Of a stretch of 42,414 nt of DNA, positions 20,568-35,276 are shown one piece after another. The DNA is from an uncultured Alphaproteobacteria bacterium (GTDB taxonomy: Bacteria; Pseudomonadota; Alphaproteobacteria; CAAGCB01; CAG-977). The position numbers and the translations under genes are program-made. Location of the stretch: assembly GCA_944393745.1 (NCBI GenBank), contig CALYBD010000019.1, positions 1-42,414 of the forward strand. Direction: 5' to 3'. Numbering within the stretch: the first letter of the stretch is position 1; every line of letters begins with the position of its first letter. The notes below the pieces were generated by a model, which saw nothing but the letters and a program-made list of their open reading frames with translations, was not told the DNA's origin and made no database searches.

Positions 20568-20629
20568 TCTTCGTCTTTCTTTGATTTAGCGCGGGGAAAA
20601 GACCTCTCTGACCGTCGAATCGACAACAC

Positions 20630-20770
20630 GCGTCGCGTGGGCCGCTTTGTATAGGTGGGCGCCGTAATACGGCTGGACTTCGAACTAAACAAAGAACGTT
20701 ATCCGCCGCAGGGACAGCTCCCGTAAAATAAAACGTTGGCCCCGAGTACCAGCGGGATTCTAACGAATCG
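20630..20770 (-). ncRNA. ssrS: 6S RNA (approximate ends)
   Basis: 6S RNA binds sigma70 RNA polymerase and mimics an open promoter. This 230-base gap between zapA and the cyclo-ligase gene is the classic ssrS locus. On the minus strand the 5' part reads CCCGCTGGTACTCGGGGCC and the 3' part GGCGCCCACCTATACAAAGC. CCGCT pairs with AGCGG and CGGGGC with GCGCCC, forming the closing stems. In between, GGGAGCTGTCCC and CAGCCGTATTACGGC bracket a central region, as in alphaproteobacterial 6S. Exact ends were not mapped; a covariance-model scan with RF00013 would decide. Confidence 0.85.
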
Positions 20771-20797
20771 AAAAGTCGTTTTCCCTGATTTCAGAGA

Positions 20798-32176: not shown

Positions 32177-32183
32177 AAAACGG

Positions 32184-32215
32184 AAAGCCCTCTGAGAACA
32201 GAGGGCTTTCTTTTT
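32184..32215. terminator. Bidirectional terminator between convergent genes
   Basis: AAAGCCCTCTG pairs with CAGAGGGCTTT around AGAA. A T-rich run follows on plus (CTTTTTAT) and TTCCGTTTTTT on minus. It serves the gene ending at 32176 and the HTH gene ending at 32214. Confidence 0.9.
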
Positions 32216-32438
32216 ATACAAAACAAATCCGGACACGCTTTTTATAAAACCGAGCCAATCGGAAAATAACGTGACGGTCGGGAATCTTGCCCAATTCCAA
32301 GGACATCAGTTGATCCAAAGGGATTTTGCTTGAACAAGATAAATCTTCTATCGTATTAAAACCGTGAAGCAAGCGTTCCCGCCTGATCATTTCTGCCAGA
32401 TGAAATTTAAAATCTGTCGGTGTATGCGCTTTTGACAT
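32214..32438 (-). CDS. Small helix-turn-helix (XRE-like) protein
   Basis: This 74-residue protein starts at ATG 32438, eight bases after AAGGAG. The HLAEMIRRERLLHGFNTIEDLSCSSKIPLDQLMSLELGKIP segment has the layout of a Cro/C1-type HTH: helix 2 'TIEDLSCSS' and helix 3 'PLDQLMSLELG'. It is barely more than the DNA-binding domain. The start lies just 32 bases beyond a strong hairpin-T element at 32461-32499, so it could be controlled by premature termination in the structured RNA region upstream. Target unknown. Confidence 0.7.
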   Translation of the reverse strand: MSKAHTPTDFKFHLAEMIRRERLLHGFNTIEDLSCSSKIPLDQLMSLELGKIPDRHVIFRLARFYKKRVRICFV

Positions 32439-32460
32439 TTGTTTCACTCCTTACTTTGTT

Positions 32461-32634
32461 AAAAAACAAACTCACCTCAAGCGTGCGGCCCAAGGTGAGG
32501 GAGTTCGAAACTGTAACAACTCAGTCCGGATTATTCGACACAGATATGCTTATCTCTCCGGCTCCCTCGTAAAAAGGGCGGATTAATTGTTGTTAAGGAG
32601 CTTCGACACTCCGCAACCGACCCGTCGGCTGCAA
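32461..32634 (-). ncRNA. Candidate structured RNA (small RNA or attenuating leader)
   Basis: This ~170-base minus-strand segment has a promoter before it and an intrinsic terminator at its end. Visible pairings, in minus-strand sense: a 5' hairpin GCAGCCGAC/TCGGTTGC (32632-32613); a long-range stem GGAGT-g-TCGAA (32612-32602) with TTCGAACTCC (32509-32500), continued by TAACAAC (32595-32589) with GTTGTTA (32520-32514); internal hairpins CCGGA/TCCGG and AGATA/TATCT; and a terminator stem CTCACCT/AGGTGAG (32499-32471) followed by TTTGTTTTTT. GAGGGAG upstream can also pair with CTCCCTC, overlapping the terminator arm. It did not match the signature sequences of SRP, tmRNA, RNase P or common riboswitches that I know. 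Confidence 0.6.
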
Positions 32635-32639
32635 AAAAG

Positions 32640-32669
32640 ATCATAAAATATTACAGGCGGGATCGTAAA
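32640..32669 (-). promoter_or_regulatory. Promoter of the candidate RNA
   Basis: On the minus strand TTTACG (32669-32664) and TATGAT (32645-32640) are 18 bases apart, directly after the xdh terminator and just before the first hairpin of the candidate RNA. Confidence 0.5.
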
Positions 32670-32672
32670 GCT

Positions 32673-32705
32673 AAAAAGCTTCCGATTTTCATCGGAAGCT
32701 TTTTT
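32673..32705. terminator. Terminator after the molybdenum hydroxylase gene
   Basis: AAAAAGCTTCCGAT pairs with ATCGGAAGCTTTTT around a TTTC loop. T runs occur on both strands. It abuts the stop codon at 32706-32708, so xdh transcription should end here and not enter the candidate RNA. Confidence 0.9.
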
Positions 32706-35276
32706 TTAAACGTTCTTTTTCGGTTTTTTATAAAACGTGTCCTGTAACGGCAAGGACGTTCTGAATTTACCGTCAAAGCGATAATAGGCATGAGAACACG
32801 CCGGTGCCGTCGGAATGGCCGCCAGTTCGCCGCATCCTTTCGCCCCGAATGCCATCGGGTTCTTGGTTTCGGATTCACACAAGATGACCTGCATTTGCGG
32901 CACATCGGTGGAACGCATCAGGCCCAAAGTCCCCAGCTTTTCTTTCGGATAACCGTTTTCCGTACGGAAATTTTCGGTCAAAGCAAAGCCCAGTCCCATC
33001 ACGATCCCGCCTTCGATCTGTCCTTCGACCGCCTGAATGTTGACAGGCGTTCCGACATCGTACGCGGCAACGACTTTTTGCACTTTGCCCGTTTCGTCCA
33101 AAACGACCACCTGCACGCCGTAACCGTACGTCACATGGCTGACGGGGTTCTTTTTATCCGATCCCAAAGCGTCCGTCGGCGGTGCGTATTCGGCGAAAAA
33201 TTCACGCCCTTCCAGATCCGCCAGCGTCTTGCCCGCGTCCAGTTCGGCTTTCAGCATTTCCGCGGCTTGTCTGGTGGCTTCTCCGGTCAGTACCGTCTGA
33301 CGCGAAGCCGTTGTCGTGCCCGCGTTCGGCGTCCGTTTCGTGTCGGGGGCTTCATGGATCACGCTTGCGGGCGACAATCCCGTCTGCGTGCAAACAATCG
33401 TCGCGCACACCGTTGCCAACCCCTGCCCGATACAGGCGGCGGAAGTACGGATATGCACTTTTTCGTCTTCAACGGACAACAGGCACCGTCCGACATCGTT
33501 CAGCCCCATGCCCACGCCCGAGTTTTTAAACCCGCACGCGATCCCCGCATAAGGTGAAGACTCGTAAACGTCTTTCACCGCTTCCAGACATTGCGCCAAC
33601 GTCACGCTTTGATCGGCGATTTGCCCGTTCGGCAGTTCCTGCCCCGGACGGATCGCGTTTCTGTAACGGATTTCCCACGGAGTAATACCGACTTTTTCCG
33701 CCAAAAGGTTTAAGTTGTTTTCCATCGCAAAACAGCTTTGCGTCACCCCGAAGCCGCGGAAAGCCCCCGCGACAACGTTATTCGTGTAAACCGCCGTTCC
33801 TTCGATATCGACATTATGGAAATGATACGGTCCCGCCGCGTGCGTGCACGTCCTGTGCAAAACAGGCGCGCCCAAAGACGCGTAAGCGCCCGTATCGGTG
33901 TAAACTTTTCCTTTCAAAGCGGTCAAAATCCCGTTTTCGTCGCAAGCCGTCGTGATTTCCAGTTCCATCGGGTGGCGTTTGGGGTGATAGTCCAGACTTT
34001 CCTGACGTGAAAACTTCACTTTGACCGGCTTTTTGGTCACCCACGCCATCAAAGCGGCGTGATGTTGCACGCTCATGTCTTCCTTGCCGCCAAAGCCGCC
34101 GCCGACCAGCTGAGAATGAACATGAACCTTTTCGGCGGGCAGTTTCAGCATCGCCGCGATTTCGCGCTGATCGTCATAAACGGACTGAGAGCCCGTGTAA
34201 ACCGTTAAAGCGTCATCGCCTTCGGGAACGGCCACCGCGCATTCGGGTTCCATAAAAGCGTGATCCTGCAACGGTGTCGAATACTTTTGCGTGACAACGT
34301 ATTTCGCGTTTTTGATCGCTTCGTCCGCGTTGCCCCGTTTTAATTCGGCGCGCGACATGATGTTGCCGTTTTCATGCAGTTTCGGCGCATCGGGCGCCAA
34401 AGCCGCTTCGATTGTCGTTACGGCGGGCAATTCTTCAAAATCGACTTCGACCAGATTGACGACTTCGTCCAACACCTCTTTTCTGGTCACCGCGACCAAA
34501 GCGACCGCATCGCCCACATAGCGGGTGATGTCGCCTTCGGCAATCATGACGTCCCAATCCGTAAAGATATGACCGTGCTTGTTAAACGGCACGTCTTTCG
34601 CGGTCAAAACGCGCACGCAATCAGGGTGGGCAACGGCTTTGGACACATCGATTTTCCTGACCAAAGCGCGCGGATATTTCGAACGCACCGCTTTGGCGTA
34701 CAGCATTCCCGGAAAAGTCAGATCATCTGCGTAAAGTCCCGTCCCGTTGACTTTTTCCGCCGCGTCAAGGCGTTTAAACCTTTGCGACAAGCCCAACTTT
34801 TCGGGATCGGCGGGAATCTGTTTGTTTTCACGGAAATATTCCGCCGCCATTAAAATGGCTTCCTCGATCTTCTTATACCCCGTACAACGGCAGATGTTGC
34901 CGCGAATGGCTTTCTTGACGTCTTCGGGCGAAGGGGTCGGATTGGCGTCAATCAACGCTTTGGCGCACATGACCATGCCCGGTATGCAAAAACCGCACTG
35001 AACGGCGCCCGCTTCCGCAAAGCAATGTTCATAAACGGCTTTTTCACGCGGTGTCAGCCCTTCGACCGTAATGATCTTTTTGCCCACAAACTTCGATACT
35101 TTCTGAACGCAGGCCTTGACCGCCTTGCCGTCAACAACAATCGTGCACGTTCCGCACACGCCTTGGGAACAGCCGTCCTTCGCCGCCGTTAAGTGCAAGT
35201 CGTCCCTTAATAAAGAAAGCAGAGTTTTATCTTCTTGTGTCGTAACGGTTTGACCGTTGATGTCCAATGTAAACAA
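32706..35276 (-). CDS. Molybdenum hydroxylase, xanthine dehydrogenase family (resembles selenium-dependent XDH)
   Basis: An 856-residue fusion of two modules. The first is a 2Fe-2S part: CSQGVCGTC...C (C36, C41, C44, C56), then QCGFCIPGM and NICRCTGY near 113-150. The second is a molybdopterin part from about residue 165: GGGFGGKED, GAFRGFG, and the C-terminal GAKGCGELAAIP with the catalytic Glu. There is no FAD domain. The length and N terminus resemble the clostridial enzymes labelled selenium-dependent xanthine dehydrogenase. No cofactor or FAD-subunit genes lie nearby, so the electron acceptor is unknown. Likely substrates are purines or aldehydes. It starts at ATG 35276 (AAAGGA site), and a palindrome lies in its promoter. 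Confidence 0.88.
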   Translation of the reverse strand: MFTLDINGQTVTTQEDKTLLSLLRDDLHLTAAKDGCSQGVCGTCTIVVDGKAVKACVQKVSKFVGKKIITVEGLTPREKAVYEHCFAEAGAVQCGFCIPGMVMCAKALIDANPTPSPEDVKKAIRGNICRCTGYKKIEEAILMAAEYFRENKQIPADPEKLGLSQRFKRLDAAEKVNGTGLYADDLTFPGMLYAKAVRSKYPRALVRKIDVSKAVAHPDCVRVLTAKDVPFNKHGHIFTDWDVMIAEGDITRYVGDAVALVAVTRKEVLDEVVNLVEVDFEELPAVTTIEAALAPDAPKLHENGNIMSRAELKRGNADEAIKNAKYVVTQKYSTPLQDHAFMEPECAVAVPEGDDALTVYTGSQSVYDDQREIAAMLKLPAEKVHVHSQLVGGGFGGKEDMSVQHHAALMAWVTKKPVKVKFSRQESLDYHPKRHPMELEITTACDENGILTALKGKVYTDTGAYASLGAPVLHRTCTHAAGPYHFHNVDIEGTAVYTNNVVAGAFRGFGVTQSCFAMENNLNLLAEKVGITPWEIRYRNAIRPGQELPNGQIADQSVTLAQCLEAVKDVYESSPYAGIACGFKNSGVGMGLNDVGRCLLSVEDEKVHIRTSAACIGQGLATVCATIVCTQTGLSPASVIHEAPDTKRTPNAGTTTASRQTVLTGEATRQAAEMLKAELDAGKTLADLEGREFFAEYAPPTDALGSDKKNPVSHVTYGYGVQVVVLDETGKVQKVVAAYDVGTPVNIQAVEGQIEGGIVMGLGFALTENFRTENGYPKEKLGTLGLMRSTDVPQMQVILCESETKNPMAFGAKGCGELAAIPTAPACSHAYYRFDGKFRTSLPLQDTFYKKPKKNV

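Follow-up and report, generated by a model that had tools for sequence, protein, structure and literature searches.

Upstream of a small helix-turn-helix (HTH) gene of an uncultured Alphaproteobacteria bacterium lies a segment of ~170 nt that had been proposed, from its sequence alone, to encode a new structured RNA that brings along a promoter and terminator of its own. Does this RNA exist, does it belong to a known family, and could it control the gene behind it? We addressed these questions in the 42,414-nt stretch of contig CALYBD010000019.1 that holds the segment, hereafter referred to as the window, and in the genomes that carry related RNAs.

Architecture of the leader RNA

The minus strand between 32634 and 32461 folds with an energy of −69.5 kcal/mol, as compared to −48.4 ± 3.9 kcal/mol for shuffled sequences (z −5.5; reached by 0 of 200 shuffles), which, together with the family-wide covariation described below, bears out the proposal of a structured RNA. 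Read from 5′ to 3′, the compact RNA opens with a hairpin, continues with long closing pairings and inner hairpins, and ends in a terminator, behind which lie the Shine-Dalgarno sequence (SD) and the gene start. The individual features, all on the minus strand, are as follows.

32640–32669, minus strand: promoter-like site, TTTACG-18 nt-TATGAT, alone at chance level
32461–32634, minus strand, reading 32634→32461: structured leader RNA, identified by fold z-score, close relatives, and family model matches
32613–32632, minus strand: P1, 5′ hairpin GCAGCCGA/UCGGUUGC; sequence nearly unique per copy, pairing kept
32597–32612, minus strand: P2 hairpin GGAG/CUCC with loop L2 (UGUCGAAG); L2 and 32509–32505 form pseudoknot A
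32589–32595, minus strand: 5′ strand of P6, UAACAAC; partner GUUGUUA at 32520–32514
32557–32582, minus strand: P4, local hairpin (UCCGCCCUU/GAGGGAGCCGGA) that competes with P8 and pseudoknot B
32562–32568, minus strand: 5′ strand of pseudoknot B, GAGGGAG; exact complement CUCCCUC at 32503–32497
32526–32561, minus strand: P8 stem-loop, CCGGA (32561–32557)/UCCGG (32530–32526), inner loop GAAUAA
32510–32525, minus strand: P7, ACUG (32525–32522)/CAGU (32513–32510)
32497–32509, minus strand: 3′ strand UUCGAACUCCCUC with three partners, namely P2/L2, the P4 3′ arm, and the downstream SD region
32461–32499, minus strand: intrinsic terminator, 12-bp stem-loop 32499–32471, then UUUGUUUUUU; U-rich tail to 32461
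32436–32450, minus strand: ribosome-binding region GGAGUGAAACAAAUG, complementary to the 3′ strand of the RNA (GUUUCGAACUCC)
32214–32438, minus strand: 74-aa XRE/Cro-type HTH gene, directly after the leader RNA

The intrinsic terminator is present as predicted, with its 12-bp stem and U-rich tail, and sits immediately before the ribosome site of the HTH gene: the SD (GGAG, 32450–32447) begins 10 nt past the terminator and the ATG occupies 32438–32436. The claim of an own promoter is plausible in light of the family, although the window site by itself does not bear it out. Specifically, a −10-like box is found ≤22 nt upstream in 118/159 family copies, versus 51–69/159 in control stretches further up, whereas the single site in the window is at chance level (2 sites found vs 1.8 expected).

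Two hairpins flank this region. The first, with A/T runs on both sides (32672–32709), lies between the end of a xanthine dehydrogenase gene and the RNA promoter and reads as the terminator of the former; a similar bidirectional hairpin (32182–32211) lies at the end of both the HTH gene and the convergent gene beside it. A minus-strand segment at 20596–20781 scores 43.7 bits against the 6S RNA model RF00013, below the curated cut-off of 46.4, and is probably the 6S RNA of the host genome. The leader RNA does not match this model, and since the 6S-like gene sits elsewhere in the window, it is not 6S RNA.

A large family of RNAs before very different genes

The window copy has no meaningful match in Rfam at E ≤ 10, and a covariance scan at gathering thresholds is empty, as the original prediction had anticipated. 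The homolog collection that it had called for yielded a family whose pairings covary, with ~33 copies in the host genome. The proposed RNA of the window is thus real and belongs to a large family, for the most part not catalogued, of RNAs of ~160–250 nt that precede very different genes. R1, a covariance model built from window-type RNAs alone, matches further RNAs before other genes at E-values of 1e-7 to 1e-5, a result repeated on other loci. R2, which combines the R1 set with those RNAs, finds matches in 10/12 genomes of the order, and R3, built on 46 sequences, identifies ~33 copies in the host genome and 25, 19, 12, and 10 in other Alphaproteobacteria. Overall, R3 matches occur in 38/385 sampled Alphaproteobacteria and in almost nothing of the rest of the phylum sample. 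The E-values of R1–R3 are roughly calibrated; the strong matches are independent of calibration. The copies are dispersed, often near contig ends.

On the same strand, a start codon with an SD follows ≤95 nt downstream in 119/153 copies (controls: 7/143 and 10/128). The downstream genes encode 132 proteins in 45 clusters, among them cysteine-rich secreted proteins, lipoproteins, porin-like barrels, prepilin-like proteins, PD-(D/E)XK and type IIG restriction proteins, HU, and small XRE proteins, the last in at least six lineages; in the host genome, most are surface proteins. As to whether the alphaproteobacterial types stem from phages or plasmids, a search with blastn and three viral-contig patterns returned nothing useful. 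A type III toxin–antitoxin system was rejected, with neither a repeat array nor a toxin next to the window RNA.

The host genome contains a second window-type copy, and two genomes of the same genus carry two tandem copies (G001) and three tandem plus further copies (G004). In all window-type copies, the RNA and the HTH gene make up a ~465-nt unit that moves together, repeated in tandem twice in G001 and three times in G004. The RNA is more constant than the protein, with a mean column identity of 87% versus 47–81% identity to the window protein.

Covariation of stems and pseudoknots

The family fold contains nested stems P1, P2, P3, P6/P7, P8, and the terminator, joined by three pseudoknots that link the L2 loop to the 3′ strand (A), the P4 3′ arm to the 3′ strand (B), and the P3 loop to the stretch before P4. 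P6 is the fastest-varying stem, and the window copy is built without the P3 domain. In its minimum-energy fold, the whole P2/L2 stretch (32597–32612) pairs with 32513–32499 instead.

The pseudoknotted structure accounts for 90.4% of cells as paired, with two-sided changes in 33/54 pairs; slid controls reach 44% or less, 0/500 shuffles are as good, and strand-swapping between copies worsens the fit of each helix (0/20000 per helix), shuffle and swap statistics alike taking no account of relatedness between copies. Two-sided compensatory change is already visible in 11 stem pairs among eight window-type copies. For the cleanest comparison, R3, a model in which pseudoknots A and B are absent, supplied 82 distinct alphaproteobacterial matches. 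Own partners fit better than swapped partners with z −23 for pseudoknot A and z −19 for pseudoknot B, which confirms these two of the three pseudoknots, and for the 3′ strand and the ribosome site of the same copy the value is z −8, relatedness being ignored here too. This fit and the closely spaced start codons agree with the predicted placement of the RNA for control of the HTH gene. The GAGGGAG/CTCCCTC pairing noticed at the outset corresponds to pseudoknot B, which is exactly complementary in the window, conserved and covarying across the whole family, and overlaps the terminator, whose opening three bases CUC also belong to it. The competing P4 hairpin is supported as well, with weak upper pairs kept in few sequences.

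A distant, longer relative of sRNA-Xcc1

The RNA sRNA-Xcc1 (RF02221) was mapped as an 88-nt species by RACE and Northern blot (PMC2996969). In Xanthomonas it sits in integron cassettes, ahead of symE (PMC12444791), and in Xylella five copies lie in tandem ~380 nt apart (PMC12189769). The window copy does not reach the 53-bit cut-off of RF02221 and stays without a match even at E ≤ 10. When sister copies are scanned against Rfam at relaxed thresholds, RF02221 comes up repeatedly, always at one place, the 3′ half (L184: 43.8 bits, E 4e-5). Searching genomes with the RF02221 model yields 13 matches in the host genome (best 40.7 bits) and 34 in genome G299 (up to 49.8 bits), both below 53 bits, one alphaproteobacterial copy elsewhere at 56.2 bits, and 0 matches in 14 control genomes; RF02221 itself is present in 58/398 sampled Pseudomonadota.

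The 87-nt RF02221 model spans only the 3′ half of the larger RNA. Reading the flanks of 35 RF02221 loci (30 sampled loci and five phages) revealed the same 5′ domain as in the window family upstream of the core, with pairing at z −13 between the 5′ region and the core and at z −7.9 between the core and downstream sequence. Around the ribosome site, the sequence of the 5′ strand often recurs, as exemplified by G452, with CCGAAAA...CAACAAG upstream, CUUGUUGCGGUUUUCGG in the core, and CCGAAAAGGAGCAACAAG before the ATG. R3 matches three RF02221 loci over their full length. Judged by this chain of models, from R1 through R3 to the RF02221 loci, the window family is a distant, longer relative of RF02221. 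The window copy is a divergent variant of a known, half-described RNA family, not filed as a member because it has no RF02221 score. The word “new” in the original prediction is therefore apt for the window copy, which has no Rfam family, but not for the 3′ half of the larger family, which is distantly the RF02221 core.

The RF02221 fold, comprising a closing stem, two hairpins, and a single-stranded stretch before the closing 3′ strand, recurs in the window copy and its family, where the closing stem equals pseudoknot B and the hairpins P8 and P7; the 3′ strand and the location before a gene also agree. The two differ in that the window copy lacks an RF02221 match and the P3 domain and has an XRE gene behind it, whereas Rfam and the literature examined give only the 87–88-nt 3′ half, as a trans-acting sRNA. 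A limited check of the literature found no description of the 5′ half or of the ribosome-site pairing of sRNA-Xcc1. Five phage copies of RF02221 score 71–86 bits; four directly precede annotated ant or KilA-N genes, and the one in Mcat15 precedes a hypothetical ORF. Pfam domains downstream of the RF02221 set include Bro-N, P22_AR, Rha, KilA-N, and SymE.

A proposed self-antisense leader and its alternatives

How might such an RNA act? We favor, as the probable reading, a cis-acting self-antisense leader of the sRNA-Xcc1 superfamily that sits before the small XRE regulator gene and gates its termination and translation. The 3′ strand is complementary to the 5′ domain (P1, P2/L2, P6), to the P4 3′ arm, and to the SD region, with calculated energies in the window copy of −17.5 kcal/mol for the 5′ strand, −14.1 kcal/mol for the P4 arm, and −11.5 kcal/mol for the ribosome site, and these pairings would compete. 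The competition is supported by the complementarity and covariation of the strands; that it switches expression of the downstream gene, and in which direction, we infer. In the putative on state, L2 and the P4 arm would hold the 3′ strand through pseudoknots A and B, depriving the terminator base of about three pairs and leaving the ribosome site free, so that RNA polymerase and ribosomes could pass. In the putative off state, P4 would close on itself and the terminator would form, while in read-through mRNA the same 3′ strand would cover the ribosome site. Removal of the three pairs that overlap pseudoknot B changes the terminator energy of the window copy from −16.6 to −9.5 and leaves 9 bp, a remainder that may still work. 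Since the minimum-energy fold of the long RNA includes the terminator and leaves the SD 23–46% unpaired through other pairings, both states are proposals. Read-through mRNA may, in addition, be a target in trans, either of the terminated RNA or of a 3′ half like the one mapped for sRNA-Xcc1, with an effect either by repression, as for c4 RNA, or by activation, as for IsrK.

The c4 RNA lies upstream of its target within one transcript. An antisense core flanked by two complementary stretches, a terminator, and a gene form a layout in which the window RNA resembles c4 (PMC12197685) as well as IsrK and P4 CI RNA (PMC4825925). In phages P1 and P7, c4 is complementary to the ribosome site of its target (review PMC12197685); segments of the window RNA likewise have their complement at the ribosome site of the gene behind it, and the phage RF02221 relatives of its family precede ant. 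However, the target in the window is of XRE type, which, like the predominance of surface proteins behind the RNA in the host genome, counts against the antisense-leader reading, antirepressors being found only behind the RF02221 relatives in phages, and the c4 model RF01695 does not match the window RNA. IsrK of prophage Gifsy-1 is an sRNA with a terminator, two alternative structures, and an antirepressor downstream, and pairing with this RNA keeps the read-through mRNA silent (PMC4825925). The window RNA resembles it in the terminator, the alternative structures, and, as proposed here, the silencing of read-through mRNA by RNA pairing, although the silencing pairing falls inside the downstream ORF in IsrK and would fall at the ribosome site in the window; the IsrK model RF01394 gives no match to the window RNA. 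P4 CI RNA has an antisense core between the complementary flanks seqA and seqC (PMC4825925), just as the core of the window RNA is flanked on both sides, by the 5′ domain and the ribosome site. P4 acts by transcription termination, and the likeness is drawn from descriptions rather than a model comparison of sequence or fold.

A ligand-sensing riboswitch class would use the same strand competition, driven by a small molecule that binds close to the conserved inner loop of P8; candidate inner loops are of the GAAUAA/GAAUAA or UAUGUCCAAG/CCAAAAG type. The A-rich conserved inner loops are aptamer-like, an H-type pseudoknot occurs at P3, and one RNA stands before many unlinked genes in up to 33 copies. 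Yet the downstream genes share no common pathway, and the genes controlled by the RF02221 relatives are phage antirepressors and symE, for which antisense control is the known theme; we consider a riboswitch unlikely. An antisense leader of the c4/IsrK type fits better in our analysis because the RNA can pair with the ribosome site behind it and has homologs before phage antirepressors.

Alternatively, the RNA could be a trans-acting sRNA, independent of an incidental downstream gene and furnished with a promoter and terminator of its own, in line with published descriptions of sRNA-Xcc1. This appears quite improbable: the 88-nt sRNA-Xcc1 (PMC2996969) and the strong terminator in the window speak for it, but the distance to the start codon hardly varies among most copies, the ribosome site covaries with the RNA, and the RNA and gene are duplicated jointly. 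There is very little likelihood that the encoded XRE protein binds the leader RNA or its DNA in an autoregulatory loop, since unrelated genes follow most copies and the XRE paralogs of one genome differ in their recognition regions while the RNA is unchanged, even though small XRE proteins recur behind the RNA across lineages. A MITE-like mobile element, its structure a by-product of inverted repeats, would explain the multi-copy, dispersed, and tandem occurrence, often near contig ends, but is disfavored to the point of being barely credible because the stems, nearly unique per copy, covary, and loops, promoter, terminator, and the link to start codons are conserved.

Returning to the self-antisense leader, it is tempting, if speculative, to regard sRNA-Xcc1 and the window RNA as different views of a single large class of pseudoknotted control RNAs, so far undescribed, that arose as phage-immunity antisense leaders or has a common origin with them, has spread in some Alphaproteobacteria (up to ~33 copies per genome), and gates surface-protein, restriction, and regulator genes, possibly via one common cellular signal. 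The poorly understood RF02221, an 88-nt “trans-acting integron sRNA”, gains a full structure ~2× longer, a testable cis mechanism with exact compensatory mutations predicted, and a link to phage antirepressor control; some bacteria carry dozens of copies as what would be a common control device, and the annotation of RF02221 matches would change.

Variant copies

Several copies stand apart. In the host genome, L050 (792–954, minus strand) is a degenerate RNA copy with broken stems and no gene behind, likely a dead element. Three copies (L115, L137, and L141 in G003:C7, G007:C44, and G008:C176) keep the 5′ part and have no start codon behind; their 3′ strand and terminator are replaced by unrelated sequence common to the three, and they are possibly stand-alone or decayed forms.

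Both window-type copies of the host genome lie just downstream of xanthine-dehydrogenase-family genes (L025, 23–2353; window, 32706–35276), and the upstream neighbor of the copy in G004:C11 is carD. A metabolite riboswitch suggested by xanthine dehydrogenase at these two loci was rejected as a general link because the other copies have different neighbors.

Genome G299 (L210–L228) contains at least 25 copies; the genes behind many of them encode XRE regulators or 46-aa proteins that hardly differ from one another (SPITERDFRRLVDLLNVYLGLSQRKRRLLLQLVQTLAK), a striking gene-family expansion. In G004 (L023, 2272–3435), two tandem units have identical RNA, and their HTH proteins differ through the recognition-helix region, as if it had been swapped by recombination.
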